Shown here one piece after another: positions 7,907 through 63,698 of a stretch of DNA of 64,000 nucleotides. Source of the DNA: a virus; the IMG/VR virus record IMGVR_UViG_3300047409_000574, positions 62,001-126,000 of that record; one strand, written 5' to 3'. The position numbers and the translations under genes were made by a program. How positions within the stretch are numbered: position 1 is the stretch's first letter; each line of letters opens with the position of its first letter. Below the pieces are notes generated by a model, which saw nothing but the letters and a program-made list of their open reading frames with translations, was not told the DNA's origin and made no database searches.

Positions 7907-9886
7907 GTGAGCGCTGCCCTAGAGGAAGGCATCTGGGATGCCCTGCGGCACCCTCGCGGGCGCGGCGGCCAGTGGTCGAAGGTGTTGGGCAAGGTGGAGG
8001 CGGCGGCCGGGGAGAAGGGTGACCCGGCCGTCGTCTCGAAGCTCAAGGCGAAGCTGGAGCCGCCGCCGATCGTTCGGCGTGTCAAGAAGCTGGAGACGAC
8101 GGAGGCGTTTCGGCGCGGCCGTCGCAGCCTGGGCTACATGCGTCAGTCGGGCGTGCATGGGGACGAGTTCATGTTCGACCTGGCGACCGATCAGGGGTTC
8201 GCGGGTCGGCCGCACGCGGTGAGCGAGGAGGAGCTACAGGCGCATATCGACGCGGGGGCGGTCGAGATGTGGCGGGGCACGTCGGATCGTTCGTACGCGG
8301 ACACGTTTCTGACCGGGACGTACTACGCGCTTGCGCTCGACACGCCCATTCCGACCCCGAGCGGGTGGAGCACGATAGGGCAGATCGAGGCTGGGGATCA
8401 GGTATTCGACGCCGATGGCAAGCCCACGGAAGTCGTGGGCGTGACGCCTGTGTTCATGGATCGGCCATGCTACGCAGTCCGGTTCGACGATGGCTCCGAG
8501 ATTGTTGCTGACGCCGACCATCAGTGGTTGGTATCCACCCGTCCTAGTCGCGAACATGCGCGACGGTGGAAAAACCCCGACAGGCGGATCGTGATGGGAA
8601 GGGCGAGGGCGATGCGAGGCGCTGGGGTGTTGCTTCGCGAGATTGGTTCCGAGCTTGGAATCACGGTGGACGCAGCGTGGAGTGAAGGATCGCACGGCGG
8701 TGATCGCGTCGTGACGACGGCGGAGATGGCTGCAACGATCGCGAGTCGGTACGCGGTTGCGAATGTCGCGCCGCTCAGGCTGCCGGATGCGGCCCTGCCA
8801 ATCGACCCGTATGTGCTGGGCGCGTGGCTTGGCGACGGCACGGCCGCTAACGCCACCTTCACGTGCGAGGACGAGGAGATCGTCTGGCAGATTAGGGCCG
8901 CAGGTCATGCTGTTCAGCGTCGGGGCGAGTCGGGCTACGGGTGTCCGAGATGGCAGATTTTCGACCTTCGCAGGAAGTTGGATTCAGCATCGCTTCTCGA
9001 CAACAAGCATGTGCCGTCAGAGTATTTCCGGGCGTCGGCCGAACAGCGTCGTGCCCTCATCTGCGGGCTAATGGACACAGACGGAACGGTGTCCAAGTTC
9101 GGCCAGTGTGAGTTTGGCAACGCGAATCGCGCGCTGGCTTACGGCATGGCCGAACTGCTTGCCTCTGTTGGCATCAAGGTGCGAATTCTTTGCCGCGACG
9201 ACGACAGGAGGAGTCGTAAGCCCTTCTTCCGGGTGATGTTCTCGACCCATTCACCCGTGTTTCGACTTCGGCGCAAGCTTGATCGCCAACAACTAGGGCG
9301 GGCCGAGGTGGATAGCAAGATCGGCAGGCACTCCGTTGTCGAGGTGCGCCAGGTTGAGAGTGTGCCTGTCAGGTGTCTGGAGGTTGCGTCCCTGTCGCAC
9401 CTGTTCGTTGTCGGCAGGGCGATGATTCCGACGCACAACTGTGGGTTGGGCTTCCGCGGCAACGGCATCTACACGGCGTCGGGTGCGCGCGCGGAGCAGA
9501 TGGCGCGGGCGTACGCGACTGCACCGCCGACACGCGGGATCGCGGCGAGGTCGGATTCGCCGACTGTGGTGCGGATGGCGTTGCACCGGGACGCGAAGGT
9601 GGTCGAGTTCGAGGATGCGGCGCGGAGCGCCCGGCACGCCCATCAGGCGGCGATGGTGGTGGGGGAGAAGTCGGGCGGTGCGGGCGGCACACCGGATCAG
9701 GTGCGGGCGGAGGTCTATCGTGATCCGTCACGCTGGGCGCTCGCGAACGGCTATGACGCGGTGCGGGTGACGCAGGCGGATGGCAGCGACGAGCACATCG
9801 TGTTGAACCGGACGGCGTTGCTGGTCTCGACGGAGTTTCGGGAGGCCGGGCAGAGCGTGATGCGTGGGGCGAGGCACGCGGCGTGA
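7907..9886 (+). CDS. ADP-ribosyltransferase-like effector interrupted by an intein
   Basis: 659-residue precursor from GTG 7907. Residues 15-23 carry the HPRGRGGQW tag and residues 35-39 the GEKGD spacer. The host protein is about 288 residues after splicing: 'VEMWRGTSDRSYADTF' (N-terminal Arg motif), then, across the intein, 'GTYY' joined to 'CGLGFRGNGIYTASG' (STS-like nicotinamide-pocket motif), 'VRMALHRDAKVVEF' and the C-terminal 'GYDAVRVTQADGSDEHIVLN', all in the order seen in phage ADP-ribosyltransferases. It would transfer ADP-ribose from NAD to host targets after release into the cell. The intein (residues 141-511) sits in the active-site motif. A GEKSGG variant of the spacer occurs late. 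Fold assignment is by motif only. Confidence 0.82.
   Translation: MSAALEEGIWDALRHPRGRGGQWSKVLGKVEAAAGEKGDPAVVSKLKAKLEPPPIVRRVKKLETTEAFRRGRRSLGYMRQSGVHGDEFMFDLATDQGFAGRPHAVSEEELQAHIDAGAVEMWRGTSDRSYADTFLTGTYYALALDTPIPTPSGWSTIGQIEAGDQVFDADGKPTEVVGVTPVFMDRPCYAVRFDDGSEIVADADHQWLVSTRPSREHARRWKNPDRRIVMGRARAMRGAGVLLREIGSELGITVDAAWSEGSHGGDRVVTTAEMAATIASRYAVANVAPLRLPDAALPIDPYVLGAWLGDGTAANATFTCEDEEIVWQIRAAGHAVQRRGESGYGCPRWQIFDLRRKLDSASLLDNKHVPSEYFRASAEQRRALICGLMDTDGTVSKFGQCEFGNANRALAYGMAELLASVGIKVRILCRDDDRRSRKPFFRVMFSTHSPVFRLRRKLDRQQLGRAEVDSKIGRHSVVEVRQVESVPVRCLEVASLSHLFVVGRAMIPTHNCGLGFRGNGIYTASGARAEQMARAYATAPPTRGIAARSDSPTVVRMALHRDAKVVEFEDAARSARHAHQAAMVVGEKSGGAGGTPDQVRAEVYRDPSRWALANGYDAVRVTQADGSDEHIVLNRTALLVSTEFREAGQSVMRGARHAA
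8327..9439 (+). mobile_element. Class-3-type intein with LAGLIDADG homing endonuclease
   Basis: 371 in-frame codons. Block A reads ALALDTPIPTPSGW, starting with Ala rather than Cys/Ser. Block B 'ADADHQWL' supplies Trp; block F 'VRCLEVASLSHLFVVG' supplies Cys; block G 'MIPTHN' supplies Thr and ends in HN with Cys as the +1 residue. Ala1 plus the Trp-Cys-Thr triad is the signature of class 3 inteins, which start splicing from the internal Cys. Two dodecapeptides, 'LGAWLGDGT' (near 8815) and 'LICGLMDTDG' (near 9060), mark a LAGLIDADG endonuclease that would home into intein-less alleles. The element interrupts a conserved active-site motif, as inteins usually do. A +1 Cys rather than Ser/Thr is less usual for this class. 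Confidence 0.93.
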
Positions 9887-10113
9887 GCGGCGAGCCGCCG
9901 GTTGCCTGGGAGATCGACTTGCGGCTGCATGATTTGCGCCGTGAGTTGGCGCGGATGGAGGACACCGGGGAGGAGTTTGATCTGGCCTGGGTGGCGGCGA
10001 TGATGCGTGCGGCGTACGCGAAGGGCTATGTGGATGCGCTGGTCGAGCCGGAGCCGGGGAAGTGGATCACGGAGTACGGCTACAAGGTGCCTGCGAAGGC
10101 GAAGCGTGGCTGA
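9883..10113 (+). CDS. Small helical protein of unknown function
   Basis: 76 residues, GTG overlapping the previous stop (GTGA). 'LRLHDLRRELARMEDTGEEF' and 'AAMMRAAYAKGYVDAL' look helical; 'AYAKGYVDAL' is a common helix in small phage proteins but does not assign function. Its 3' end overlaps the start of the next large gene by eight bases. Confidence 0.75.
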   Translation: MSGEPPVAWEIDLRLHDLRRELARMEDTGEEFDLAWVAAMMRAAYAKGYVDALVEPEPGKWITEYGYKVPAKAKRG

Positions 10114-11998
10114 CTCGGCGACGCTCGACGCGCAGGTGTCGTATTCGAGGAAGGCTGCGGCGCTGATGAATAGCGAGGCGGTGCTCGGGCTGCCGCTCGA
10201 CCAGCTTTGGGCTGTTCGCGACGCGCTCGCGCAGGCGCGCACGGAGGATGATCTGCCGTCGCATGTGCGCGTGCTGTTCGACGAGCAGACGCACGCGAAG
10301 ATTGTGGAGGCTCGCTACACGGAGCGGCTGCATCCTCGTGGCCGGGGTGGGAAGTGGATCAGGGGGATGCACCGGATCGAGCAGGTGGCGTCGATGGCGA
10401 GCACGGCGACGAAGCTCAAGGTCGGCAAGGGTCGCAAGGGTCGCAAGGCAAAACCGGTGGGCTGGTTGGAGGCGGTGCGGGAGCATCAGAAGGTGCCGGT
10501 GCTCAAGCAGAGCGATCTGGTGCGGCGGCGGCGGCAGGCGTTCTCGACTCCACGCGAGGAGTGGAAGCTGGTCTCGACGGGCGACGGGGATGTTTACGCT
10601 CAGGGCGACGCGACGTTGACCTGGCGGTCGAGGAAGATCAACGACAACGTCGAGTGGGGGTATGAACTTCGGATCGACGGTGGAGAGCCGCGCTGGATTG
10701 AGAGCTATCCGGGCGACGGCATCTACGACGTGGCTCGACGGGCGATGCCGGAGCGGCGCTCGGAGTCCGACAAGTTCATGGACGAGTGGTACGGCGGCCC
10801 TGGCCGACCGGGCTTGTATCAGCGGGTGAGCGGTGATCCGGGCGAGCAGTTCGTGGCGCAGCACGAGCGGATCATGGATGCGGGCGCACGGATCGACGCG
10901 GAGATCGTCCGGCGGATGGGTGACGCGGTGAAGCGGCATCGGGAGGCGGTCAAGGCGGAGCGGGATGCGAAGAAGGCGGTGGTGCTGGCCGAGAAGCATG
11001 AGGAGGTGCTGGCGTTCACCGGGATCGGCCGGGAGATGCTCGGGTGGCTGGAGCACGACCCGGAGCAGTTGACGCCGGATGCGCTACGCGAGCGGCTGCG
11101 GCTCTACAACCGTGAGGCGGTGAAGCTGGCGCGCAACCAGGACAAGTCGGTGATGACGACGGCGAACGCGCAGTTGTGGGACATGCACGAGTACGACCGG
11201 TTCAACGTCGCGGAGCGGAACGGCATCGACTTGCAGGCCGCGCACGACGCAGGCTACGAGGCGCGCGTTGTGGTGTTTCGCGCGGCCGATGAGCGGCGGG
11301 CGGCCGAACAAGACCTTGCCGACAGGCGGCGCGCCGCGACCTGGGAGGTGCTCGGGGAGACGCGTCGGTTCGGCAACGAGTTCGAGATCACCCACGACTA
11401 CTCGCCGGACGTGATGCACTACGACGAGACGACTGCGAAGGCGCTCGACTTCGTCGCGGTGTTTCTGCCGCACGACTGGATTGTGGACTCGAACCGGTCG
11501 GAGTATCGGCTGCTGGTTGGCGAGGCGGATCAGCGCGGGAGCTACGGGCATGCACGGTCGTTCAACGTGCAGACCGGTGTGGGGACTTCGGTGTTGACCG
11601 GCAACCGTGAGCAGAAGGATCACGGGGCGATGTTGCCGCGTGGGGCGGGGGTGGCGTTGCACGAGATGGTGCACCGCGCGGAGTACGTCCATGACGGGAT
11701 CAAGGGGGCGGAGTGGACGTTCTACCAGCAGCGGGTTTCGCCGGGCGTCAACCGCACATGGGAGACGCCGGAGAGGCTGATCGACTTGATCCCGAACTCG
11801 GGCTACGAGGAGCACGAGATGGCGCGCCGCGATCACTTCACCCATCCCTACTCCGGGAAAAGTTACGGGGATGACATGGAGTCAGCGTGGGAGCTTCTGA
11901 CGATGGGCGTGCAGGACTTGGCGACCGGCGAGCACGGGATCATCGACAAGGACGAGGAGTACCGGCAGTTCGTCCTGGGCGCGCTCGCCATTCTCTGA
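10106..11998 (+). CDS. Polyvalent-type protein with C-terminal zincin metallopeptidase domain
   Basis: 630 residues from GTG 10106; upstream in-frame codons are shadow sequence. Tag 'LHPRGRGGKWIRGM' at about residues 75-88 (His codon 10331). Then a basic linker, a region with 'WKLVSTGDGDVYAQGDATLT', a long charged helical part (about 250-400), and a C-terminal domain with HEMVH (11660-11674) and 'DDMESAWELLTMGVQDL'. HExxH plus a downstream Glu in ESAWE is the zincin pattern seen in phage-delivered polyvalent proteins, which suggests a zinc protease acting on a host or virion protein. Its stop overlaps the next start (TGATG). Confidence 0.83.
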   Translation: MADSATLDAQVSYSRKAAALMNSEAVLGLPLDQLWAVRDALAQARTEDDLPSHVRVLFDEQTHAKIVEARYTERLHPRGRGGKWIRGMHRIEQVASMASTATKLKVGKGRKGRKAKPVGWLEAVREHQKVPVLKQSDLVRRRRQAFSTPREEWKLVSTGDGDVYAQGDATLTWRSRKINDNVEWGYELRIDGGEPRWIESYPGDGIYDVARRAMPERRSESDKFMDEWYGGPGRPGLYQRVSGDPGEQFVAQHERIMDAGARIDAEIVRRMGDAVKRHREAVKAERDAKKAVVLAEKHEEVLAFTGIGREMLGWLEHDPEQLTPDALRERLRLYNREAVKLARNQDKSVMTTANAQLWDMHEYDRFNVAERNGIDLQAAHDAGYEARVVVFRAADERRAAEQDLADRRRAATWEVLGETRRFGNEFEITHDYSPDVMHYDETTAKALDFVAVFLPHDWIVDSNRSEYRLLVGEADQRGSYGHARSFNVQTGVGTSVLTGNREQKDHGAMLPRGAGVALHEMVHRAEYVHDGIKGAEWTFYQQRVSPGVNRTWETPERLIDLIPNSGYEEHEMARRDHFTHPYSGKSYGDDMESAWELLTMGVQDLATGEHGIIDKDEEYRQFVLGALAIL

Positions 11999-13924: not shown

Positions 13925-13953
13925 TTGTTGGAGTCAGCGCTGATGGCTACGAT
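13925..13953 (+). promoter_or_regulatory. Promoter driving a leaderless small gene
   Basis: TTGTTG (13925-13930), exactly 17 bases, then TACGAT (13948-13953). Transcription would start at about 13960, which is the A of the ATG of the next gene, so the mRNA would be leaderless, as is common in actinobacteria. Confidence 0.6.
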
Positions 13954-13959
13954 GGGGGC

Positions 13960-16252: not shown

Positions 16253-16471
16253 GTGCGGATCGTCGCCGAGACCGTGAGTGGCCGGTTCACCCTTGTGGAG
16301 ATGGACGGTGGCGCGGGTCGGGTGGTGAACCGGGAGACGCACGGCTACGTGCTGGCCCCGGCGGTCGAGTCGGTGCTCGCCCGCGGCGGCTGGGTGGCCT
16401 ACACCGGGACGGACGCGGAGGGCGAGGCGCGCAAGCTGATGGACGCCGCGTGGCTGGAGCGGGTCGCGTGA
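16253..16471 (+). CDS. Small protein, unknown function
   Basis: 72 residues from GTG 16253, with GCGGGAGG just upstream as ribosome-binding site. Beta-rich start 'RIVAETVSGRFTLVEMDGG' and a helical end. Overlaps the following large gene by four bases (GTGA). Confidence 0.7.
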   Translation: MRIVAETVSGRFTLVEMDGGAGRVVNRETHGYVLAPAVESVLARGGWVAYTGTDAEGEARKLMDAAWLERVA

Positions 16472-18468
16472 GCACGACCGCGGCACCTTTGACGTTCGAC
16501 GCGTGGGAGGAGATGCGGGTCGAGATCGAGGAGGTCGCCGCCGACGGCACCCAGACCGCGGAGGAGCGGGCCGCCCGGCTGAACGAGTTCAAGCTCGACC
16601 TGACTGAGATGCTGGGGGTGGTCGCGACCTACATCGGGGATGCGCAGACGGAGGCGTCTGGTCGTACGAGGGAGGAGCAGTTGGCGGTCGAGCGGCTGCG
16701 CGAGAGTGCCGACATTCGCGCTGAGTTGCTGGAGCGCGGGGTGGCGACCGAGGAGGCGCTCGACGATGCGCTGATGCTTTCGCATGAGGCGATCGACCAG
16801 CTTGTCGAGGACGGCATGCTGGAGGAAACGGCGATGCACGTGGCCGGGTTCATGCGCAAGTTCGAGGAGGGTAGGCATCCGCGCGGGCGGGGCGGCAAGT
16901 GGATCGACGTGCTCGGCAAGATCACGAAGCTCAAGGAGGGCGACTCGCACTCGGCCGGGATGGGGGTGCGTGCGAAGAACATGGGCGGCACGATCCATGT
17001 GCAGCGGCACGGCAAGACGTTGTCGAAGCACACGAACCGGGAGAGCGCGGCGCGGGCGCTGCTGGCGGCGGCCGAGACCGCCCCGCCGAAGCGTCGCCGC
17101 GAACCGGTCGCGAGCGCCGAACATTGGAAGGGCGGCACGCATGTGTCGGTGACGGGCGGCCAGCACAAGGGCAAGTCCGGTGAGGTGGTCACCCATCATG
17201 CGTCTACCGGCGAGGCGACGGTGGACTTCGGCACCCATGTCGGGGTTGTGAAGCAGGAGCATCTGCGCCAGGACAGAGCACCGGGCGCGGGTGGCGCGGA
17301 GCGTGCGGCGGAGGATACGAAGATCGCATCGCGCGCGGCCGAGCAGGAGCTTTCGCCGGAGGAGAAGAAGGCGCTGTACGACGAGCGCAAGACTCGGCTG
17401 GAGACGCAGGCGGTGAAGGCGGTGAAGTCGGCGGCCGAGCGCGGGAAGCTCTCGGATGCGGAGTCTCATTTTTCTGAGACGGGTCGCGTCAGTCAGCGCA
17501 CGCTCGCGAACTATGTGGAGGAGGCTTCGACCTCGCCGCAGACGAGCGAGCTTTACTCGTCGATCAACGCTGCGACGGGTGAGCGCGTCTGGAACTCATC
17601 GCGCAAGGTGCTGCACGAGAGGATCATCACGGCGTACTTGAAGAAGCGGAAGATCGACCCGGAGACTGGCAAGTCGGTGCTCGACTACAGCCCCGACGCG
17701 GAGGACTTGCAGTCGCACCCGGATGGGCCGCGAGTTTTATTTTCTGGTGGGGGTTATGCGAGCGGAAAGGGCGGCGTGTTGAAGATTCTCGCGGCGCGCG
17801 GGGAGACGCCGCCGGACTCGTTCGTACTCGACCCGGATCAGATCAAGGCGGAGCTTCCCGAGTTTCAGGCGATGATCGGCACCGACCCGGAGGCGAACAT
17901 GCACGTCTACCGGGAGGCGTGGGCGATTGCGCAGGAGATTCAGGCGCGTGCGATGGAGAAGAAGCTGAACATCACGGTCGATGGGATCAGCAACACCGCG
18001 CCGGAGGAGATGGGCCAGCGCGTCAAGGCGTTCACCGATCGCGGCTACAGCGCTCATGTTGTCTATGCGGACATTCCGACGGAGGAGGCTCTCAAGCGTG
18101 CCGCGAATCGTGCCGAGAACGCGAAGGAGGACTCCGACCGCAGGATGATCCCGGAGATCATCATGCGCTCCGTGCATCGCGATGTGGCGGCGACGGTTCC
18201 GGCACTACCTGGCTACTTGGACGAGCACGGGATTCCAGCGCACATCGAGGTGTGGAACAACGATCAGGGCAAGGACGAGCAGGGACAGTTCCGTCCGCCC
18301 CTCAAGTTTTTCGAGCACGCGTCGTCGTCGCATCCTGGAATTGCCGGTGTCGGGGACAAGGCTGGTGGCGAGCTACAGACCGGCAGCATCGTCCACGATC
18401 AGGGCTTGTGGGACGCGTTTAGGAATAAGGGTCACGAGTCGATCTCTCACGTCGAGGGAACGAATTAG
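16468..18468 (+). CDS. Polyvalent-type protein: KOW-like domain fused to a zeta-toxin-like kinase
   Basis: 666 residues from GTG 16468. An N-terminal helical part leads to the tag 'RHPRGRGGKWIDVLGKI' (His codon 16876). A KOW-like segment follows ('HVSVTGGQHKGKSGEVV', near 17140). From about 17730 there is a P-loop kinase of the zeta-toxin type: Walker A 'GGGYASGKGG' (17746-17775), 'VLDPDQIKAELPEF', 'ITVDGISNTAPEEMG' and a basic lid 'RMIPEIIMRSVHRDVA'. Zeta toxins phosphorylate UDP-sugars or related metabolites and poison cell-wall synthesis; no epsilon antitoxin is seen. A GDKAGGE spacer occurs near the end. The Walker region is locally AT-rich (GAGTTTTATTTTCTGG), which hints at separate origin of this module. 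Confidence 0.86.
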   Translation: MSTTAAPLTFDAWEEMRVEIEEVAADGTQTAEERAARLNEFKLDLTEMLGVVATYIGDAQTEASGRTREEQLAVERLRESADIRAELLERGVATEEALDDALMLSHEAIDQLVEDGMLEETAMHVAGFMRKFEEGRHPRGRGGKWIDVLGKITKLKEGDSHSAGMGVRAKNMGGTIHVQRHGKTLSKHTNRESAARALLAAAETAPPKRRREPVASAEHWKGGTHVSVTGGQHKGKSGEVVTHHASTGEATVDFGTHVGVVKQEHLRQDRAPGAGGAERAAEDTKIASRAAEQELSPEEKKALYDERKTRLETQAVKAVKSAAERGKLSDAESHFSETGRVSQRTLANYVEEASTSPQTSELYSSINAATGERVWNSSRKVLHERIITAYLKKRKIDPETGKSVLDYSPDAEDLQSHPDGPRVLFSGGGYASGKGGVLKILAARGETPPDSFVLDPDQIKAELPEFQAMIGTDPEANMHVYREAWAIAQEIQARAMEKKLNITVDGISNTAPEEMGQRVKAFTDRGYSAHVVYADIPTEEALKRAANRAENAKEDSDRRMIPEIIMRSVHRDVAATVPALPGYLDEHGIPAHIEVWNNDQGKDEQGQFRPPLKFFEHASSSHPGIAGVGDKAGGELQTGSIVHDQGLWDAFRNKGHESISHVEGTN

Positions 18469-47363: not shown

Positions 47364-48040
47364 TCGGCTCGGACTTTCAGGTGGTCTACAACGCGACCCG
47401 CAACGACTCGCCGTTGCATCTGCTTCGGCGGGGCGGCTTGCGGGTTGCGGTGTGCGGGGAGCCGCTCGGGCCGTGGGGTCAGTTCCGGGTGAAGGACGAG
47501 TTCGGCGTCAAGGACGATCCGGCGGCGTCGTGTCTGCCGTGCCTGGTCAGGCATGCGGCCCGGCTCGCGATGATCGTGCACGGCAAGCAGATCGACCAGG
47601 ACGGCAAGCCGCACATCGAGCATGTGAAGCGGGTCGCGACTTCGCTGGAGGGCGACGACGAGGCGGTTGTGGTGGCGTTGCTGCACGACGTGGTCGAGGA
47701 CTCGCAGGGGGTGACGTTCGAGACGTTGCGGATCGAGCACTTCCCGAAGGTGCTGGTCGAGGCGGTCTGGCTGCTCACGCGCGGGCAGGCGGAGAGCGCC
47801 GACACCTATCTGCCGAACATCTGCCGGGCGTCCAGCCGGGAGGGCACGCTCGCCCGCCGGGTGAAGCTCGCGGATGCGCTGGACAACTTCCGCCGGTCGA
47901 AGGGTGATCCGGTGCGCGAGCCGCGCTACCGGGGCTATGTGCGCGAGGTGCTCGACGCGATGGTGCTGGCGCTGGAGGCGACTGCGCCGTTCGCGAATCA
48001 GATTTGGGACGAGTTGCGCGGGGAGACGGCGGTCGCGTGA
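47360..48040 (+). CDS. HD-domain phosphohydrolase with N-terminal Cys module
   Basis: 226 residues from GTG 47360. The N-terminus has 'VAVCGEPLGPWG' and 'ASCLPCLVRHAARLAM' (Cys groups). The HD domain follows: 'HGKQIDQDGKPHIEHVKRVA' (first His), 'DDEAVVVALLHDVVEDSQG' (HD pair) and a later Asp in 'RVKLADALDNFRR'. The pattern matches RelA/SpoT-type (p)ppGpp hydrolases such as MESH1, so it may remove ppGpp or another nucleotide during infection. Substrate is inferred. Confidence 0.86.
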   Translation: MIGSDFQVVYNATRNDSPLHLLRRGGLRVAVCGEPLGPWGQFRVKDEFGVKDDPAASCLPCLVRHAARLAMIVHGKQIDQDGKPHIEHVKRVATSLEGDDEAVVVALLHDVVEDSQGVTFETLRIEHFPKVLVEAVWLLTRGQAESADTYLPNICRASSREGTLARRVKLADALDNFRRSKGDPVREPRYRGYVREVLDAMVLALEATAPFANQIWDELRGETAVA

Positions 48041-48374: not shown

Positions 48375-51300
48375 GTGTCCGACGACTTGACCCTTCACCC
48401 TCTGCTCGCTTGCTTCGTCGGTCGGCTCCAGGAGGCGGGCCTGGATCGGACTGGGGCGCTGGCGGTGGCGTGCACGAGCCTGGCCCGCTGGGAGAAGTCC
48501 GGGAAGGGCGATGCGGGGGAGCGTCTGCCGGAGCGGGCGCGGGCGCTGGTGAAGCGGGCGCTGTACGAGTTCGAGGGGCTGCACGGCTTCCACGATGGGC
48601 TGCTGGAGGCTGTGCGGGCGGTGGGGGATACACCGTTGACGCCGGAGGCTGCACGGGAGGTGGTGGAGGCTGCGACGACGCATGCGGCGCTGGCGCTCGG
48701 GCTGCTGGAGACGGTGCGGGATCGGGACGAGGTGGTGCAGGGCCGGGCGATGGAGACGGCGGCGAAGCTGCTGAACCTGGAGTTCACCGGCACGGCGCAG
48801 GACGAGGTTTCGCGGATGCGCCAGGCGCTCGACCAGGCGTTGTGCGCCGACAAGGTTTTGATCGAGGGGATCGGCCATCGGTTCGAGGAGTTGCTGCATC
48901 CGCGTGGGCGGGGCGGCGAGTGGATCAAGGGTTTGCAGAAGCCGGGCGACAAGGGCGGCGGCGATCTGCCGCCGGAGGCTGGGAAGTTTTACAGCGCGCA
49001 CGTTCAGGGTGCGCAGGCGAGGCTCAAGATTCTGCGTCCGCATCCGCGCAGACCGGGCTGGTGGGAGGCGGAGAATGTCACGACGGGCGGCCGGGTGCGC
49101 GTCACGCCGGACATGCTCACGCCGGAGTCGGGCGACAAGGGTGGCGGCGAGTCGGGCAAGCTCGACCGGGGCGCGCCGGTGCGGCTGCGCGGCGGCCCGA
49201 AGAAGTGGAGCGTGTTCGAGGATCACGGCAACGGCTACGTGACGATCTCTCACGGTCAGGCGTTCGACCAGGTGAAGAAGAAGGTGCTGCGTCGGGACTT
49301 GACTCCGTGGGGTGGCGACAAGGGCGGCGGCGGTGTTCGCAAGCAGATCACTCGGATCAACCTCGTCCCAGGGGGCGAGGGAGACAAGGGCGATCCGGGC
49401 AGGCAGCGCACGGGCGACCCGAAGATCGACAAGCTGATCGAGGAGTTCCTGCGGACGCCTATGGGCGACTGGACTAGCGACGACAACACCTACGAGGCGT
49501 TGCGTGATCCCGAACGCTCGCACGGTGCTTGCCAGGAGGTCACGGATCACTTTGTGGAGTTCGCGAAGGCGCGCGGCTTCAAGGCTTACTCCACGAACAC
49601 CGACATGGAGGAGATGGGCTACACGCCGCAGATCAAGCCGTTCGGTGAGGTGGGCTTCGATGACCACGGCGAGATGCAGTACGGCTTCTATCCCGAGCAC
49701 ACGATCGCCACGATCGTTGTGGACGATCCCGCGTACAAGTACGGCCGCGAGTTCTACATCGACTTCACCGCGAGCCAGTACGGGTACAAGGAGCATCCGA
49801 AGGTGACCGAGTCGCTCGACGAGGAGACCTACTGGCGGCTCTGCTCGGACGTGGTGGCGCTGCGCACGGTGATGCTGTTCGAGGCCGACGACCGGGAGCA
49901 GCGCAAGCTGCGGGCGAACGCCGCCGCGCTCGTCGAGCGGATGCGCTACCTCGCGCCGGGCGAGTTCGACGCGGTGCCACGGGTGACCGACGAGATGCTG
50001 GCCGAGTCGGTGGAGGTGACGTTCGAGCCGGTGCTCAACATTCTGTTCGAGGCCGGGCAGGCGTTGGCGGCCAAGCCGCCGCCGGTGAGTTCCGATCCGG
50101 TGACGCGGGCGCATCAGGTGACCGGGACGAAGCCGGGTGAGACCGGTGTGCCGAACGCGGACTTCGAGAGAGTCCACCCTCGTTCGCGCGGGGGCGTGTT
50201 CGCGAAGAAGGGCGACGGGCTGGGGGCGCAAGCGTCGAACCCTACGGTGAAGCAGTTGCAGGCCCGCCTGTCGGCGATGGGCTACCGGGTGGTGCAGGAC
50301 GGCCAGTTCGGCACGGTGACCGAGCAGGCGGTCAAGGCGTTCCAGAAGGATCACGGGCTGCCGGAGTCGGGGCATGCGGATGCGCGGACGGCGGCGGCGA
50401 TGCGTGATCCGGGCGCGGGCGTGCACAACCGGCAGACCGCGGGCACGGCTGCTGGAACGGCTGCTGGAAAGAAGGGTTCCAGTAGCGCTTCGAGTAGCTC
50501 GACCGGTGTGTCGCTCGGCAAGGCGGGGATGTTGCGCCGCGGGGACGGGATGGGGCCGGGCGCGAAGCCGTCGAACGAGGTGGCGGTGCTCCAGCAGACG
50601 CTCGACTCGATGGGCTACGAGGTCGGGGTGGGCGGCGCGGACGGCCGGTTCGGGGAGGACACGCAGGCGGCGATCGAGATGATCCAGCGGCGGTACGGGC
50701 TGCGGGTGGATGGGGTGGTGGGGTCGCAGACCGCCGACCTGATCCACCGGCTGATGACTGCGCGGGCGAAGCAGGGCAGGCAGGACGGGCAGTTGTCGGT
50801 GGACGAGATGCCGTCGAAGGGCGTGACGCCGAACAAGGTTCCGAAGGGCACGTCGGGCCGGAGGGCGGCGAAGAAGAAGGCTGCGCCGAAGCTACCGAAG
50901 CAGGTGACGGTGGCGGCTGCACCGGCGGCTACGGGGGGTCAGAGTTTGAGCGCGGGTTCGCGCCTACAGCATGCGGCATCTACCGCAGAGGAGGAGCAGG
51001 ACATGGAGGACGTGGCGCTCGTCGAGGTGACCTTTGATCCATCGAAGCACGCACGCGGGCGGGGCGGCAAGTTTGCGGAGATGCTCGGGCATGCAGCCGA
51101 GGCGTGGAAGTCGGGCAAGGCGTATCTCGACAACTCGGGGAACTACCGGCTCAAGAGTGAGGGGGGGAACAGTCGCAGAGGTCAGGTCGCGCCGTGGAAC
51201 AAGGCGGTCAAGTCTGCGTTCCCGAAGCACGACGACTTCGCGCGTGCGATCGACCCTGCCGCCGCCAAGTCACACGATGAGGCGATGGCGCGACTGAACA

Positions 51301-54300
51301 GGTTCGAGGTGAAGTCGGTCGGTGGGGAGCACCATGTGATCGACAACCAGGATGGCGGTCGGATCGTTGCGAAGCACAAGTCGTTCGCGGGCGCGCGGAA
51401 GAAGGCGCAGAAGTTGGGCGACGCGCAGCCGGGCGGGCGCGACGAGCAGGAAGCGAAGTGGCGCGAGATTCGCGGCGAGCAGCCGCGCAGTCCTGCGACG
51501 ACGCGCTTGCAGTCGGATGCGATCGACCGGAGCCGTCGGGTGCACAACGCGAACGTCGCGAAGGACGAGGCTGCGGCGGGCAAGTGGCATGGACAGGATG
51601 TGTCGAGCGGCAAGCTCGTGCCGGTAGAGGAGATGCACCTCCTGTCGGATGAGCAGGTGCAGCAGTTGATCGACCGGGCGACCAATCCCAGGACGCAGCA
51701 GGCTCCGGCGGAGTGGGCGTCGGCGGTCGCGCGCGAGGCGAACAAGCGGAAGGCCAAGTTGCGGGAGGCGAGCTTCTCCTCTGGCGGGTTCGACACGAAC
51801 TCGCCGGTGCAGCAGAAGTCCGGCGGGGTCAACGGCCTGAACGGTGGCGGCGCGAACGGCGAGGCGCTGCCGGGCGGGCGCACGTCGGGCACCGATGACG
51901 TGTGGGGTGGCTCACGGGCGACGAGGCCGCCTGGTCTGCGCGAGTCACCGGCCGACAGCTTCGCATCGTGCGCGACGTGCGTGCATCACAACGGGGCGCG
52001 GCTGTGCGCGCTCTACAGCGCCGGGACTGACCCGGACGATCTCTGCGACTCGTGGTTCACGCTGACGCCGGTCGAGGCGCGGACGACGGCGACGATGCTG
52101 CTGGCACGGTTCGACCGCGGCGAAGGCGGGCAGGTGGATGAGGCCGCGCGCGCCGACCTGATCCGGGACGGGTGGGCACGGCTTGAGGAGAGCGTGCTTG
52201 ACTTGCCCGAGACCGCGTCGGTGGCGCGCGGCATGCTCTCGCAGGGGGCCACGGTCGCCCAGGCGCGCGTCGAGGCGACGCAGGTGGTCGCCCGGCGCGT
52301 GCTTGACCGGGAGCGCCGTGGTTTGTTCGGCCATGATCTGGAGGAGGCCGCCGGGGCGAAGAAGGTGAAGTGCCCGAAGTGCGACACGGTGCAGGCGGCG
52401 ACGAACAAGGCGTGCGTGAAGTGCGGGAAACCGATGCAGGGGATGGGCGGCAAGCTGAACGAGTCGCTGCTCAACGCGGCCGGTGGTGTGCTCGACGACT
52501 GGCTGGCCGAGAGCACGCTGACGGCGGAGGCACGGAAGAAGCTGCCGAAGGACGCGTTCGCTGTCCCGCCGGACAAGTACCCGATCCACGATGAGGCGCA
52601 TGCGCGGAACGCGCTCGCGCGGGTGGCGCAGCATGGTTCGCCGAAGGAGAAGGCGATGGTTCGGCGGAAGGTCAAGCAGCGGCATCCGAAGATCGTGCAG
52701 GAGGCGCTCGACCTGATCGCGTGCGAGGTCTGCGCGCTCGACGAGGATTCGCAAGGGCTGGCCTGGTCGTTGTTGGAGGCGGCTGACTCGATGGTCAAGG
52801 CGACGGTGCACGAGCCGGTCGGCAAGCCGGGCGGGAAGGGGCTGTGGGGCCACAAGGGGATGCAGCTTCCGGCGTACATCCAGCACATCGCGAACGATCT
52901 GCGTGAGAAGCGCGGCATGACTACATCGCGGGCGGTCGCGACGGCTATCGCGGCGGTGAAGCGGTGGGCGGTCGGTGGCGGCAAGGTTGATGCGACTACG
53001 CACGCGGCGGCGATCAAGGCCGTCGCGGAATGGGAGGCGCTCAAGGCCGCATCGCATGCGCATCTCAAGGAGTCGGGTGTGTTGAGCGAGGCGGGCATGG
53101 TGATCCACTTCGACCCGCATCTGCATCCGCGTTCGCGCAAGGGCGAGTTCATCGACGTGCTGGGCAGGCTGATGCAGGGCCATCGCGGCGGCGAGGTGAC
53201 CTTGCCGCACGGGGTGAGTGTGCGCAAGCAGGGCGGGCTGCTGGTGGTGCGCGACGGGGGCGGCCCGGCGGGGGTGTATCGCAACCCGGCCAAGGCGGCG
53301 GCGAAGGCGCTCAAGCAGACGGGTATCCCGTCGCCGAAGCACACGAGCGCGGACATGGGGATTCGCACGCCCCGGTTCGCGATCGCGTTCGACAAGGGCG
53401 ATCCGAGCACGCCGGGCTGGACGAAAGTGGAGGCGGCGACGGGCAGGTTCCCGGCGCATCACCGGACGTTGCCGAACGGCCGCTCGGAGATGTTGACGAA
53501 GCTGCCGGGGGAGGATCACTGGCGGCACATCGGCATGACCCGGACGGGGAACGTGGATGCGTTGCGGGCGGTGCCGGACGCGGAGGCGCGGCAGATGATC
53601 GCGGGGGAGCAGGGCGGTCATGTGGTGCATCTCCAGTCGGTGGGCTTGCATCCGGCGAAGCCCGCGTCGGAGTTCGTGCCGGGCGATCATGTGGTCTACA
53701 ACTTTGGTGTCACGGGCGAGGTGACGAAGGTGGAGCCGAAGGGCAACTCGGTGGCGCTTACGACGCGCAGCGCGGACGGGAGGGAGTTCACGTCTACGAA
53801 GCGCGGCTCGACGTTGTTGGGCCATTCGCTGCGTTCGTACAACGGGGCGGAGAAGGGCGGCGGCGAGTTCCGCGTGTCGTGGTATGACGGCCGTCCGCCG
53901 GAGGGCCACACGTGGGGGGTCGGCGACAAGGCGTTCTGGAACGGCCGGAACGTGGAGATCATCAGCAAGCTCGGGACGGTTTCGGGTGCGGAGCAGAACT
54001 ACGGGATCAAGTTCGAGGACGGGCATGTGAACTGGGCGAAGCACAGCGAGCTTTCGCTGCCGTACACGGGCGACAAATCAGGTGGCCGGGGCGGCTCGTG
54101 GGGCGACACGGAGGGCGGCCAGGACGCGACGCGTGGCAGGGAGGCTCCGATCCGCTCGGGCGCGCAGCCGATTCCTGCGGCGACGTTGAGGGGCGGCGGC
54201 CTGGATGAGATTCGCCACACGGTCGTCTATCGCAAGCAGGACGGCTCGTACAGGGAGACGGGCGTCAGCGCGCGGGACTCGAATCACGCGCGCGAGCTTG

Positions 54301-55538
54301 CGGCCCGCATCATCCCGGAGAACGCCACGATCACCCAGGCGTTCCCGGAGAGCGACTCGACCAAGTCGGTCGGCGAGATGACCGACGTGGAGCTTCGGAC
54401 GGCGCTTGGCACGATCAGCGACAGGCTGGTGATGCATGCGCAGAGCGGCGATCGGCAGGGCGCGAATGCGGCGACGATTGTCAGCGGGCAGATCACGCAG
54501 GAGATGGAGCGCAGGCGCGGCGACGAGGCGCAGGCGCAGGCGCAGGCGCTTGCGAATCGGATGGCGTGGGGCGAGAAGGGCGGCGGCAGCTACGCGCAGC
54601 AGGCCGAGACCGAGATGTGGGATGCGATTGCCGGGCAGGACGCGAGGCCGGTGGTCGCTTCGCCGCCGCTTCCCGATGCAAGCGAGTTGAAGCACATGTC
54701 GGACGCTCAGATCACGGACTTGGTCGAGCGAGTGATCCCGCAGGCTCGTGGCGCTGTCCACGATCAGAGCGTGCCGGGCGAGTTCCGCCAGAAGCTCGCG
54801 GCCGAGGCGAACAAGCGCAACACGCGTCGCTACCAGGGCGGCGGCGGCGACAACGTGGAGGCGCAAGGGACGATGAAGCCGACGCTGACCTCTGGGGGGT
54901 TCAGTCAGAACGCTCCGGGCTACGGCTCGCGCGGCTACGAGACGCCGAAGGGTCGGGTGACGTTGTCTCTCAACTCGATCCCGAAGGAGTGGATGATCGA
55001 GCACGGCTACGCCGTCAAGACCGAGCACAAGGCGACGGCTGCGTGGGCCGGTCGTCAGCCGAGCAAGGCGTACACCTCGATCGACTACAAGACGGGTCTC
55101 GACGTGGAGCGCGTCTGGATGCACTACCTCACCGGCGCGGTGCCGAAGAACCCACTGGAGGGGACGAACAAGGCGGCGCAGTTCCGCTACACGGGCAAGG
55201 GCGGCACGAAGGCGACGCGTGCGGCGCTGGCGCGCAGGCTGACTGAGGCTTCGCTTCCAGCGCTGGCGGTTGTGCTCGGGCTGACCGAGTACCGCCAGCA
55301 TGCGATCGTCGGACGGCTCGATCGGATCGAGGACACGGCGGTGACGATGGTGCGGCTGCCGGTGGCGGAGTTCATCGTCGAGGCCCGCGCCAGCGACAAC
55401 GATCTGGTGGCGGCGACGGTCGAGGTGCTGCGCGGTCGGCTGGCGGAGGTGGCCCCGGACGCTGACCGGCGGCTCCAGGAGGCGGCCCCTGGGGATGAGA
55501 GGAAGCTCTACGCGACGATTTGCGGGGCGCTCGCGTAG
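48375..55538 (+). CDS. 2387-residue modular polyvalent-type protein
   Basis: GTG 48375 with AGGGAG four bases before. Order: helical N-terminus; tag 'HPRGRGGEWIKGL' (48897); barrel segments between GDKGGG spacers (48945, about 49131 and 49314); a papain/transglutaminase-like part with Cys ('GACQEVTDHFVEFAKARGF'), His ('PEHTIATIVV') and Asp ('YIDFTASQYGY'), 49440-49800; tag 'HPRSRGGVF' (50175); two peptidoglycan-binding_1 repeats ('VKQLQARLSAMGY', 'VAVLQQTLDSMGY'), 50240-50760; tag 'HARGRGGKF' (51048); CxxC patch (51967); zinc ribbon 'KCPKCDTVQAATNKACVKCG' (52370); a DUF6582-like 'KYPIHDEAHARNALARV'; 'LPAYIQHIANDLREKRGM'; tag 'HPRSRKGEF' (53124); an 'FVPGDHVVYNFGVTGEVTKV' barrel; a helical C-terminus. 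Probably packaged and perhaps cleaved; cell-wall binding and protease-like activities are inferred. Confidence 0.88.
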   Translation: MSDDLTLHPLLACFVGRLQEAGLDRTGALAVACTSLARWEKSGKGDAGERLPERARALVKRALYEFEGLHGFHDGLLEAVRAVGDTPLTPEAAREVVEAATTHAALALGLLETVRDRDEVVQGRAMETAAKLLNLEFTGTAQDEVSRMRQALDQALCADKVLIEGIGHRFEELLHPRGRGGEWIKGLQKPGDKGGGDLPPEAGKFYSAHVQGAQARLKILRPHPRRPGWWEAENVTTGGRVRVTPDMLTPESGDKGGGESGKLDRGAPVRLRGGPKKWSVFEDHGNGYVTISHGQAFDQVKKKVLRRDLTPWGGDKGGGGVRKQITRINLVPGGEGDKGDPGRQRTGDPKIDKLIEEFLRTPMGDWTSDDNTYEALRDPERSHGACQEVTDHFVEFAKARGFKAYSTNTDMEEMGYTPQIKPFGEVGFDDHGEMQYGFYPEHTIATIVVDDPAYKYGREFYIDFTASQYGYKEHPKVTESLDEETYWRLCSDVVALRTVMLFEADDREQRKLRANAAALVERMRYLAPGEFDAVPRVTDEMLAESVEVTFEPVLNILFEAGQALAAKPPPVSSDPVTRAHQVTGTKPGETGVPNADFERVHPRSRGGVFAKKGDGLGAQASNPTVKQLQARLSAMGYRVVQDGQFGTVTEQAVKAFQKDHGLPESGHADARTAAAMRDPGAGVHNRQTAGTAAGTAAGKKGSSSASSSSTGVSLGKAGMLRRGDGMGPGAKPSNEVAVLQQTLDSMGYEVGVGGADGRFGEDTQAAIEMIQRRYGLRVDGVVGSQTADLIHRLMTARAKQGRQDGQLSVDEMPSKGVTPNKVPKGTSGRRAAKKKAAPKLPKQVTVAAAPAATGGQSLSAGSRLQHAASTAEEEQDMEDVALVEVTFDPSKHARGRGGKFAEMLGHAAEAWKSGKAYLDNSGNYRLKSEGGNSRRGQVAPWNKAVKSAFPKHDDFARAIDPAAAKSHDEAMARLNRFEVKSVGGEHHVIDNQDGGRIVAKHKSFAGARKKAQKLGDAQPGGRDEQEAKWREIRGEQPRSPATTRLQSDAIDRSRRVHNANVAKDEAAAGKWHGQDVSSGKLVPVEEMHLLSDEQVQQLIDRATNPRTQQAPAEWASAVAREANKRKAKLREASFSSGGFDTNSPVQQKSGGVNGLNGGGANGEALPGGRTSGTDDVWGGSRATRPPGLRESPADSFASCATCVHHNGARLCALYSAGTDPDDLCDSWFTLTPVEARTTATMLLARFDRGEGGQVDEAARADLIRDGWARLEESVLDLPETASVARGMLSQGATVAQARVEATQVVARRVLDRERRGLFGHDLEEAAGAKKVKCPKCDTVQAATNKACVKCGKPMQGMGGKLNESLLNAAGGVLDDWLAESTLTAEARKKLPKDAFAVPPDKYPIHDEAHARNALARVAQHGSPKEKAMVRRKVKQRHPKIVQEALDLIACEVCALDEDSQGLAWSLLEAADSMVKATVHEPVGKPGGKGLWGHKGMQLPAYIQHIANDLREKRGMTTSRAVATAIAAVKRWAVGGGKVDATTHAAAIKAVAEWEALKAASHAHLKESGVLSEAGMVIHFDPHLHPRSRKGEFIDVLGRLMQGHRGGEVTLPHGVSVRKQGGLLVVRDGGGPAGVYRNPAKAAAKALKQTGIPSPKHTSADMGIRTPRFAIAFDKGDPSTPGWTKVEAATGRFPAHHRTLPNGRSEMLTKLPGEDHWRHIGMTRTGNVDALRAVPDAEARQMIAGEQGGHVVHLQSVGLHPAKPASEFVPGDHVVYNFGVTGEVTKVEPKGNSVALTTRSADGREFTSTKRGSTLLGHSLRSYNGAEKGGGEFRVSWYDGRPPEGHTWGVGDKAFWNGRNVEIISKLGTVSGAEQNYGIKFEDGHVNWAKHSELSLPYTGDKSGGRGGSWGDTEGGQDATRGREAPIRSGAQPIPAATLRGGGLDEIRHTVVYRKQDGSYRETGVSARDSNHARELAARIIPENATITQAFPESDSTKSVGEMTDVELRTALGTISDRLVMHAQSGDRQGANAATIVSGQITQEMERRRGDEAQAQAQALANRMAWGEKGGGSYAQQAETEMWDAIAGQDARPVVASPPLPDASELKHMSDAQITDLVERVIPQARGAVHDQSVPGEFRQKLAAEANKRNTRRYQGGGGDNVEAQGTMKPTLTSGGFSQNAPGYGSRGYETPKGRVTLSLNSIPKEWMIEHGYAVKTEHKATAAWAGRQPSKAYTSIDYKTGLDVERVWMHYLTGAVPKNPLEGTNKAAQFRYTGKGGTKATRAALARRLTEASLPALAVVLGLTEYRQHAIVGRLDRIEDTAVTMVRLPVAEFIVEARASDNDLVAATVEVLRGRLAEVAPDADRRLQEAAPGDERKLYATICGALA

Positions 55539-60650: not shown

Positions 60651-60747
60651 ACGATTCCGATGATCCTGGTGCGGTAGTTACTACTCACCCTGGGTGCAAG
60701 AAACCCATTGGCAGGGTAGGCTACTTGCCCAGGATGGTGACAACGTC

Positions 60748-62187
60748 TTGAGCACGACTGCGGTCGAGCAGTTCGAGGAGCACCGCGAGATCGCGGAGGC
60801 CGACCCTGACCTCGTTCTGCATGAAGCCGCGACTGTTGTCTCCGGCTCTCTGCGCGAGGCGATCATCGGACGCGCGCGGGCACGCGGGATCGAGCAGCCG
60901 GGAGAGGGCGCGAAGCTCCTCCAGGTGATCCGTCCCGGTGTCGGCGGCGGCCGGGGCCGTCGCTACTACTCACCCGATGTGCTGCGCGAGGCCGCCCACG
61001 TGTTCACCGGCGCGCGCATGTTCAAGAACCACCTGACCGAGAAGCAGCGGAAGGAACTGGAAGGTCTCCCGCGGCCGGTCGAGCATCTCGGCGGCAGGAT
61101 CGTCGAGTCGTGGTGGGACGGTGAGGTTCCGGCCAGCGATCGGTTCGAGCGTGGCGGCGTGTACGCCTGGTCGAAGCCGATCCGGTCGATCGGCGAGATG
61201 ATCGACGACGACCCCGATCTGATCGAGTCGTCGATCTCTGCGCTGGCAACTTCGATTCGTCCCGGCAAGGTGGGCGGGACGAACGTGACGATCGTCGAGG
61301 GAATCCGTGCGAAGCCGGTGTCCGTGGATTGGATCGCGGGCGAAGGTGGTGCGGGTGGCCGCGTGCTGATGGAAGCCGCTGCTGACGAGGAGGAGGAGGC
61401 GGTGCTGGAGTCACTCAGTGACGACCGTTTCACCGAGTACCTGGAGCGCGAGCGTCCAGGTCTGCTGGAGGCGCTGCGCGAGCCAGGCGGCGACCATGAC
61501 GACGACCGGCGAAGGGAGCAACAGGTGCCGGATGAGATCAGTCCCGAGCTTCTGACGGAAGCTCTGGCGTCGCCCGAGGGCCAGCAGGCGATCAGGCTTG
61601 CGGTCACCGAGGCGATGCAGGACGTAACACCCTCACTCGACGAGGATCGGGTCATGCAGATCGTCGAGGCGCGGATGGCCGATCGGGCGGACTTGATCCG
61701 TCTGGAGGCGACCCGTGAGGCGAACTACGCCATCGAGGTTCGCGACATGGAGCGCCGGGCGCACTCGCTCGTCGAGGCGGCCAAGCTCCATCCGAAGCTC
61801 GCAACCAAGATCAAGGAGCGGTTCTCGCTCGACGAGACCGGCGAGGCGGCCGACGGCTTGAACGTCGTGGCCGACTTCGACGAGGACGGCCAGGTCACGA
61901 AGTCCGCGATGGACAAGCTGGTCGAGGCCGTCACCTCCGAGATCGACGATGCACGCGACCTCCAGACCAGCCTGGGCACGCGCACGATGGTGCGCGGTCA
62001 GGGTGGCGGCTCCGAGGCGCTCCGCGAGGCCCGCGAGGCCCGCGACAAGGACGAGGACAAGGGCAAGCCGGACGGCGAGAAGCGCACGCCGAAGCCGACT
62101 TCTGGCTCCTCGCTCACCGACGACCTGCTCAGAGAGGCGGGCTACTCAGATGAGCAGCTTCCCGCCATCTGGGTGAACGGCCGGTAG
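60748..62187 (+). CDS. Capsid maturation protease fused to scaffold-like domain
   Basis: 479 residues from TTG 60748; GTG 60694 would add 18. The protease part has 'RYYSPDVLREAAHVFTGARM', 'FKNHLT', 'GRIVESWWDGE', 'GVYAWSKPIRSIGEM' and 'ESSISALATSIRP', the order seen in actinophage prohead proteases. After an acidic linker at about 61490 the rest is charged and helical, as in scaffolds ('REAREARDKDEDKGKP'), and is predicted to be cleaved off. It assembles inside the procapsid with the coat protein at 62589 and then trims proteins; it is the best candidate to process the tagged polyvalent proteins. Start codon choice is uncertain. Confidence 0.88.
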   Translation: MSTTAVEQFEEHREIAEADPDLVLHEAATVVSGSLREAIIGRARARGIEQPGEGAKLLQVIRPGVGGGRGRRYYSPDVLREAAHVFTGARMFKNHLTEKQRKELEGLPRPVEHLGGRIVESWWDGEVPASDRFERGGVYAWSKPIRSIGEMIDDDPDLIESSISALATSIRPGKVGGTNVTIVEGIRAKPVSVDWIAGEGGAGGRVLMEAAADEEEEAVLESLSDDRFTEYLERERPGLLEALREPGGDHDDDRRREQQVPDEISPELLTEALASPEGQQAIRLAVTEAMQDVTPSLDEDRVMQIVEARMADRADLIRLEATREANYAIEVRDMERRAHSLVEAAKLHPKLATKIKERFSLDETGEAADGLNVVADFDEDGQVTKSAMDKLVEAVTSEIDDARDLQTSLGTRTMVRGQGGGSEALREAREARDKDEDKGKPDGEKRTPKPTSGSSLTDDLLREAGYSDEQLPAIWVNGR

Positions 62188-62199: not shown

Positions 62200-62589
62200 A
62201 TGCCGTACAACAGAAATGGCACGCGCTACTACGTCCTCTCGGCGTCGCGCCAGCGCGTTCAGGGTGCGCCCGCCGTCGAGGACAGCGTCGTCGGCGTCGT
62301 GCAGAAGCAGGTGCAGCCGAAGGGTGACGTTGGCCTTTCGGTTCAGGCGATCATCGCGGCGGCCGAGCCGTGCGTCATCGTCTGCAAGGGCATCGTGCAG
62401 GTGCCGTTCGTCGCCACTTCGGTGAAGGGCAGCACGTGCTGGATTCACGCCACCACGGATGCTCTCTCGGTGGCCGACCCCGGCGCGGGCAACGGTCGCA
62501 AGTTCGGGCGTGTGGTCGAAGTTCAGGGCCAGCGCGGAACCCCGACGGGCTTCATGCGCGTCGATCTCGACTCGAAGGACTCGTTCTGA
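62200..62589 (+). CDS. Capsid decoration protein (DUF2190-like)
   Basis: 129 residues, ATG with GGGAGGAAC upstream. 'VVGVVQKQVQPKGDVGLSVQ', 'PCVIVCKGIVQVPFVAT', 'GSTCWIHATTDALS' and 'GRVVEVQGQRGTPTGFMRVD' match small beta-barrel decoration proteins that bind outside the capsid, and the place between protease and coat gene is typical. The stop overlaps the coat start. Confidence 0.82.
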   Translation: MPYNRNGTRYYVLSASRQRVQGAPAVEDSVVGVVQKQVQPKGDVGLSVQAIIAAAEPCVIVCKGIVQVPFVATSVKGSTCWIHATTDALSVADPGAGNGRKFGRVVEVQGQRGTPTGFMRVDLDSKDSF

Positions 62590-63698
62590 TGAGCCGCTAC
62601 GGAATCTGGGGGCACAGCATCCCGTTGTTCGACGCCTGGCAGGAGTGGGCGGAGAACGGCGAGGCGCGGGTGGCGTCACTCCGGGAGGCAGCAGGCGACG
62701 GCGACTACGACGCGGCGCTTGCCCTGGAGGAGATGGACACCCGGTTCGACTTCCCCAACTACCTGTTCGGCCCGGTGAGCACGTCGCTCTGGCACGGCTA
62801 CTCGCAGGTGGCCCCCCAGTACCGGCGCTACGCCCGGATCGAGAACCTGCCCGACCTACGCGAGCGCCGGTTGCGCGGTCTGAACGCCGTGCGCGGCATG
62901 AGCTACGTCGGGGAGAACGGCGAGTACGTCGAGGGGCGGCGCACGGAGCGCCCGTCGGCGGGCCTGATGGTGGACAAGTACGGGTTCGTCTACAAGATCA
63001 CGATGGAGGCGATCATCAACGACGAGACCGGGGAACTGCTCAACCGAGTCCCCGGCGAGATGGGGCGCGATGCCTCGATCTTCGTCGCGAACACGCTGGT
63101 CGCCCTGATCGAGTCGAACCCGCTCGCGCCGGACGGTGCGGTGTTCTTCTCGTCCGGTCGCGGCAACCAGACGACGCTTGCGCTGTCCGAGGACTCTCTC
63201 GCGGACGGCATCACGTTCATGGACACCCTGACGGACGACTCGGGCTACCCGATCACCGTTCGTGTCGGGTCTCTGATCGTGCGGAACACGCGGCTCCAGA
63301 TGGTCGCCGCACGGATCGTCAACTCGACGCTGACCGGCGTGAACGTGACGTACACGGGCGCGGCCGGGATCGGCAGCAACATCTTCGACAAGGGCACGAT
63401 CAACCCGCTCGCGGGCATCCTGCCCAACGACGGCATCGTGAAGGAGCGGTTCTTCTCGGACTCGAACGACTGGTACTTGTTCGCTGACCCGAACGACGTG
63501 CCCTCGTTCGCGCTGGGCTTCCTGAACGGCAACGAGCAGCCCTTCGTGGGTCTGCGCGAGCCGCAGGTGCGCTCGGCGATGGGGCCGGGTCTCGACCCGT
63601 ACACGTTCGAGTTCGACTCGATCGACTTCAAGGCGCGCCACTTCTTCGGGTGTGCGTGCGTCGATCCTCGTGGTGCGTATCGCGGAGTTGTGGCATGA
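62589..63698 (+). CDS. Major capsid protein (HK97 fold, Mu gpT-like)
   Basis: 369 residues, ATG in an ATGA-type overlap; an overlapping open frame starting at 62370 is not used. 'KYGFVYKITMEAIINDETGE', 'LNRVPGEMGRDASIFVANTL', 'VFFSSGRGNQTTLALSEDSL', 'GSLIVRNTRLQMVAARIVNS' and 'DSNDWYLFADPNDVPSFAL' follow the P- and A-domain layout of HK97-like coat proteins of this family. It would form the capsid shell after scaffold-assisted assembly. Position right after protease and decoration genes confirms the module. Confidence 0.93.
   Translation: MSRYGIWGHSIPLFDAWQEWAENGEARVASLREAAGDGDYDAALALEEMDTRFDFPNYLFGPVSTSLWHGYSQVAPQYRRYARIENLPDLRERRLRGLNAVRGMSYVGENGEYVEGRRTERPSAGLMVDKYGFVYKITMEAIINDETGELLNRVPGEMGRDASIFVANTLVALIESNPLAPDGAVFFSSGRGNQTTLALSEDSLADGITFMDTLTDDSGYPITVRVGSLIVRNTRLQMVAARIVNSTLTGVNVTYTGAAGIGSNIFDKGTINPLAGILPNDGIVKERFFSDSNDWYLFADPNDVPSFALGFLNGNEQPFVGLREPQVRSAMGPGLDPYTFEFDSIDFKARHFFGCACVDPRGAYRGVVA

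Follow-up and report, generated by a model that had tools for sequence, protein, structure and literature searches.

A tagged 2387-residue phage protein that is most likely head cargo, probably cut by the head protease

Sequence signals suggest that P0001, a 2387-residue protein of a large tailed phage, is most likely head cargo of the polyvalent type, probably cleaved by the head protease and then ejected together with the DNA; we put the probability of this combined reading at about 0.64. The protein carries a repeated tag together with a motif of the head-protease kind, and it is this combination that leads us to read it as cargo that would be packed in the capsid, cut there and released at entry.

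RESULTS

P0001 lies among the virion genes

The window (G000:C1:62001-126000, the whole stretch of 64,000 bases that was analysed) is part of an IMG/VR virus record of 126,255 bases, which reads as a myovirus by its gene content. In the same record, the terminase is found at C1:42950 and the portal at C1:48012, while connector, tail sheath and tape measure genes stand at its start; from this gene order, we infer that the two record ends join. After the portal come many accessory and tagged genes, and behind them P0001, the head protease/scaffold gene and the major capsid protein (MCP) gene. P0001 thus lies among virion structural genes, and its earlier placement between an accessory block and the capsid module holds. 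The gene directly upstream of P0001 (window 47360-48040) is HD-domain phosphohydrolase-like (phrog_990), and a weak match to Ku-like DNA end-binding proteins was seen at G000:C1:40591-41577 (phrog_4873, E 3.5e-4).

An ORF of the phage larger than P0001, of 3213 amino acids (G000:C1:57013-66654), enters the window at its left end (1-4654). It matches ART-PolyVal and LPD1, both below the Pfam cut-offs, as well as phrog_2319, and has neither HPR tags nor an LxE excess. We first suspected that phrog_2319 marked the portal, which was then found at C1:48012; in relatives, it is a separate gene close to the peptidoglycan (PG)-binding gene.

Table 1. Features of P0001 and of the genes discussed with it. 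Positions are those of the window; a hyphen within a motif marks the predicted cut.
Feature	Position	Strand	Residues	Basis or remark
HPR-tagged ADP-ribosyltransferase-like protein, LAGLIDADG intein inside	7907..9886	+		
HPR-tagged protein with HEMVH (zincin) motif	10007..11998	+		
HPR-tagged Zeta-toxin-type kinase	16450..18468	+		
P0001, tagged multidomain protein, 2387 aa	48375..55538	+		ORF, coding signal
LIE-G, predicted cleavage motif before tag 1	48858..48869	+		motif scan
Tag 1, HPRGRGGEW	48897..48923	+	175-183	
Two short beta-rich repeats with GDKGGG linkers between	48966..49313	+	198-313	SH3/KOW-like by eye
C386...H442...D463 pattern	49524..49784	+	384-470	papain/transglutaminase-like by sequence pattern only
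Tag 2, HPRSRGGVF	50175..50201	+	601-609	PG-binding type of tag, without LxE
PG_binding_1 domain 1	50238..50402	+	622-676	Pfam
PG_binding_1 domain 2	50565..50744	+	about 731-790	Pfam, PHROG matches
LVE-V, candidate cleavage motif before tag 3	51018..51029	+		
Tag 3, HARGRGGKF	51048..51074	+	892-900	
Two Cys4 clusters, probably zinc-binding	51969..52424	+	about 1199-1227 and 1333-1350	sequence
DUF6582-like module	52527..52682	+	1385-1436	also phrog_16160, Streptomyces phage proteins
LPAYIQHIA module	52782..53063	+	1470-1563	own gene in most relatives
LSE-A, predicted cleavage motif before tag 4	53082..53093	+		
Tag 4, HPRSRKGEF	53124..53150	+	1584-1592	
719-residue stretch, no internal [LIM]xE[AGS]	53091..55247	+	1573-2291	predicted intact product
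P0005, head maturation protease and scaffold, 15 [LIM]xE[AGS]	60694..62187	+		conserved H/S, fold, position
Major capsid protein, likely start M74 of ORF 62370, LxE before conserved core	62589..63698	+		

P0001 is a genuine, shuffled, tag-bearing protein

P0001 is encoded by one uninterrupted ORF with a GTG start (Table 1). The ORF scores strongly and evenly as coding sequence (log-odds 1197), with a third-position GC of 0.81-0.93 in every 100-codon block, and the earlier note was right to treat it as a single 2387-residue frame. The peptidoglycan-binding repeats and four HPR tags reported there are likewise present, the repeats being two PG_binding_1 domains (Pfam E 3.6e-33). The same note called P0001 by far the largest gene, which is true only among genes lying wholly inside the window: the 3213-residue ORF is bigger, and relatives carry ORFs of 2600-3900 amino acids.

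Whole P0001 used as a query against IMG/VR returned no relatives. We therefore gathered them via the MCP, which gave 43 related loci in IMG/VR. P0001 matches 12 of 24 related records, mainly through the PG-binding pair and the LPAYIQHIA module; the other 12 records are for the most part short fragments. Ten of the 12 matching relatives encode the PG-binding pair and the LPAYIQHIA module in ORFs of their own, and two (L092 and L093) have both in one giant ORF. In the relative G004, the PG-binding ORF also contains a Zeta-toxin kinase, which in the phage of P0001 is a separate tagged gene; thus, the modules move. In P0001 as in its relatives, the tags sit at module joints. The earlier impression that several genes had been joined is supported by these comparisons.

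The separate ORFs in ten relatives could also be taken to mean that P0001 is an assembly or frameshift artefact joining distinct genes, the outcome that the earlier note had named as fatal to its own reading. We regard this as extremely improbable, because the coding signal is even over the whole ORF, on a single contig and without a change of frame, and because giant tagged proteins occur in complete cultured genomes too, such as gp48 of phage Gilgamesh. Since the modules are separate in most relatives and yet fused inside other giant ORFs in two, the joining represents module shuffling and not an assembly error.

The HPR tag recurs in related and cultured phages

The tag is a 20-residue motif with the consensus LxE-A-x-[YWF]-xE-x-L-HPR[GD]RxGKW-I-x-KLG. 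Its DNA pattern matched 51 times across 25 related records, with all matches in a record on the same strand, whereas the reversed control pattern gave none in the same records; thus, the tags are far beyond chance. The exact sequence HPRGRGGKW was found in 24 stretches among 2.9 million viral contigs, many of them from records already counted as relatives; about 85,000 bacterial and archaeal genomes yielded a single occurrence. A broader form, HPRDRxGRW, was discarded as a probe of viral contigs, where it returned true tags mixed with chance reading frames. No description of the tag, or of head cargo of the polyprotein type, was found in the open-access literature.

The tag also heads three more proteins of this phage: an ADP-ribosyltransferase-like protein, a zincin-motif protein and a Zeta-type kinase (Table 1), the first two being putatively assigned from sequence motifs. 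PHROG matches of ORF 7907 to the terminase large subunit were rejected, as they cover the intein within the ADP-ribosyltransferase-like protein; the intein starts at about residue 141, an unusual intein location. One relative (L091 of G002, 2320-14067) encodes a 3915-residue ORF with seven HPR tags and with CCA-adding enzyme, ParB, GNAT, LPD1 and PG-binding domains. That different enzymes are headed by tags in one phage, and that a relative has seven tags in one ORF, supports the reading of tagged cargo. A further locus (L127, 5936-9019) encodes an HPR-tagged CCA-adding tRNA nucleotidyltransferase, with likely homologues, judged by the tag-flanking sequence, in L129, L131 and L132; a tRNA-repair enzyme as ejected cargo is possible.

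Tags of the same kind occur once, near the N terminus, in a large portal-adjacent protein of the Gordonia phages GodonK (gp67), Forza (gp78) and Sixama (gp73), and in the portal-adjacent gp48 of Streptomyces phage Gilgamesh, an uncharacterised protein of 4624 amino acids encoded just after a portal-MuF fusion gene (NC_073461 31978-45852). A similar tag was found in gp13 of the haloarchaeal virus HHTV-1. The search E-values are weak (0.1-1) for all cultured-phage tags except those of GodonK and Phendrix; what lends the weak ones credibility is their constant position beside the portal. Their core is [WF]xxxLHPR[GD]xxG[RK][FW]I or close to it. None of these cultured phages has LxE directly before the tag, and no clear LxE excess was seen in the tagged proteins that were counted, those of GodonK, Forza and Sixama. 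Because the tag occurs there without LxE, the HPR core is older or more widespread than the LxE site. In our reading, HPR would serve for loading or docking and LxE for processing within the lineage of P0001, to which cutting may be restricted.

A motif of the head-protease kind precedes most tags and is enriched in P0001

The prohead protease gp21 of T4 cuts after L/I-X-E (PMC9026906), and gp245 of SPN3US cuts after AXE (PMC10052503). In a set of 67 non-redundant tags, with the PG type set apart, [LIM]xE starts 8-14 residues upstream of the HPR core in 53 cases (4.9 expected) and at exactly -10 in 33. The residue after the glutamate is A in 32, G in 7, S in 6, V in 5 and another residue in 4. 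Within P0001, LxE precedes three of the four tags. Tag 2 is without it, as are seven of the eight PG-type tags, so that LxE is not part of every tag; this counts against the reading as cut and ejected head cargo, as does the 3213-residue polyvalent-type protein of the same phage, which lacks both tags and excess.

The motif [LIM]xE[AGS] is found 19 times in P0001, compared with 5.4 expected, a count reached in 0 of 1000 shuffles; the excess also holds under shuffling within 15-residue blocks (0 of 500) and persists outside the tags. P0005 has 15 such motifs against 2.2 expected, and genome-wide these two genes show by far the largest excess, which is specific to the glutamate and to the LxE spacing. 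In relatives, the protease/scaffold homologues of P0005 have 12-13 motifs versus about 2.1 expected, and the tagged ORFs have 70 versus 35.

Along P0001, candidate cut sites fall into clusters (P about 0.01-0.02), at residues 20-164, 503-559, 1131-1572 and 2291-2369, with long uncut stretches between the clusters, one of 719 residues. The predicted products would be roughly 165-503, with the beta-rich repeats and the C-H-D region; roughly 560-1131, with the PG-binding pair and the region of tag 3; and roughly 1573-2291, with the region of tag 4. Some candidate sites fall inside domains, such as LPES at 662 (site 664) within the first PG-binding domain, where the site may be buried.

P0005 resembles head maturation proteases

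H48 and S115 of P0005 (segment positions) are invariant in 25 sequences. An AlphaFold model of its residues 66-262 (pLDDT 85) gave 63 matches in a viral fold library at E<=1e-3, and among those that carry a name are capsid maturation and prohead proteases; a PDB fold search gave no match. Since the homologue also stands close to the MCP in relatives, P0005 combines the conserved histidine and serine, the capsid-maturation-protease fold and the MCP proximity expected of a prohead protease. From motif conservation, we infer that it would be specific for LxE. In the MCPs of the relatives, LxE is retained at the N terminus, directly ahead of the conserved ADFPSFL core, as expected of a head-protease site, and the MCP of this phage has LEE-MDTRFDF. 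The ORF of the latter is open for 73 codons upstream of its likely start M74 (window 62370-62588), and this later Met is where most relatives start.

These results also bear on whether P0001 is packaged as a polyvalent-type protein and left uncut. LxE[AGS] could be a helix or docking motif. In that case, LxE-x-x-[YWF]-xE-x-L-HPR would form one composite docking motif for the scaffold or portal, and the additional LxE would be helix signatures. The tight spacing between LxE and HPR, with 33 of 67 at one position, resembles a single binding element, and the Gordonia and Streptomyces phages have the tag without LxE. However, the excess extends outside the tags, is common to the protease/scaffold, prefers A, G or S after the glutamate and survives block shuffling, and the N termini of the MCPs have the same motif. 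We therefore consider an uncut P0001 unlikely.

The PG-binding pair and the C-H-D region

The earlier note suggested action at the cell wall during entry or lysis. In that view, P0001 would be a wall enzyme, either a virion-associated lysin or an endolysin, with a papain-like peptidase that its PG-binding domains carry to the peptidoglycan. C386, H442 and D463 do follow each other in the order expected of papain-type enzymes, about 150-200 residues upstream of two convincing PG_binding_1 domains, and the best PHROG matches of the PG-binding part are endolysins. These matches are, however, restricted to the PG-binding domains. No papain-family match around the three residues was found in Pfam, NCBIfam, a PDB sequence search, phage and plasmid tblastn or a scan of the related loci, and a single-sequence AlphaFold model of the region is poor (pLDDT 54). 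The papain-like site is thus a candidate, seen as a sequence pattern. No cell-wall catalytic domain was recognised alongside the PG-binding domains, so a role in lysis is not supported. Relatives conserve the PG-binding pair together with the tag while its partner domain varies (the Zeta kinase in G004), and the greater part of the 2387-residue chain has no connection with the wall. A wall enzyme is therefore improbable, more so than an uncut cargo; wall action remains plausible for the PG-binding part, which is conserved in relatives. The beta-rich repeats gave no match in Pfam.

DISCUSSION

We favour P0001 as head cargo that is cut and ejected. It would be made alongside the head proteins and taken into the prohead, where P0005 would cut it after LxE, mostly between modules, so that several products carry HPR near their new N terminus. 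At infection, the products would leave the head with the DNA. The HPR core would serve as a loading or docking tag common to the other effector-like cargo of the phage, namely its ADP-ribosyltransferase-like, zincin-motif and Zeta-type kinase proteins. The PG-binding pair would probably tether the product that contains it to the cell wall as the phage enters, and the remaining pieces would act on host targets.

P0001 resembles the polyvalent proteins of phages and conjugative elements (PMC5512222, Iyer et al. 2017), which are large multidomain proteins near virion genes that mix effector enzymes with PG-targeting and nucleic-acid domains. It has the PG-binding pair, the DUF6582-like module and further modules, its only enzyme-like part being the candidate C-H-D site. 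Catalogued polyvalent domains (ART-PolyVal, LPD, MPTase, PBECR and others) have no Pfam match in P0001; such domains are present in the sister ORF at C1:57013, through its sub-threshold ART-PolyVal and LPD1 matches, and in the tagged ORF of a relative. In contrast to polyvalent proteins, whose processing was explained by built-in metallopeptidase domains (PMC5512222), P0001 has a short repeated tag at its joints and is predicted to be processed in trans by the head protease.

The internal proteins and Alt of T4 carry a capsid targeting sequence and are cut by gp21 after L/I-X-E (PMC9026906, PMC9958956). Short motifs with separable loading and processing parts, LxE cleavage and an ejected ADP-ribosyltransferase cargo are shared features, here predicted from sequence. 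L/I-X-E occurs in P0001 as well. However, instead of a targeting sequence that is removed from the N terminus, P0001 has several internal tags in one chain, and the HPR core, which lies C-terminal of LxE, would be retained by the product after the predicted cut. In SPN3US and phiKZ, ejection proteins are cleaved behind a short motif with Glu as its last residue (PMC10052503, PMC5694885). There, the prohead protease processes head-internal proteins, some of them at several positions, as well as the MCP and itself, as we predict here; whereas those cuts remove propeptides, the ones in P0001 would separate modules of a fused protein. DarA and DdrB of phage P1, for which proteolytic processing was reported (PMC12810830, PMC5512222), are likewise large, defence-related, head-packed proteins, but they have other domains, no HPR tag is known in them and we found no sequence relation to P0001. 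GodonK gp67, Forza gp78, Sixama gp73 and Gilgamesh gp48 share the tag core and the portal-side location with P0001 and differ from it in having a single tag near the N terminus without LxE directly before it.

More broadly, the lineage may follow a polyprotein strategy, in which a transferable tag joins enzymes and wall-binding modules in an order that varies. The long chains would be loaded into the prohead, and the head protease would then cut them so that each product keeps HPR near its N terminus. We hold this wider proposal tentatively, at somewhat below even odds. Cultured relatives that carry one tag make the idea accessible to bench experiments. If true, it would provide a sequence signature for head-packed, ejected effectors in uncultivated phages, would help to explain phage proteins of 2000-4600 residues and would supply a small tag of natural origin with which proteins might be loaded into phage heads.
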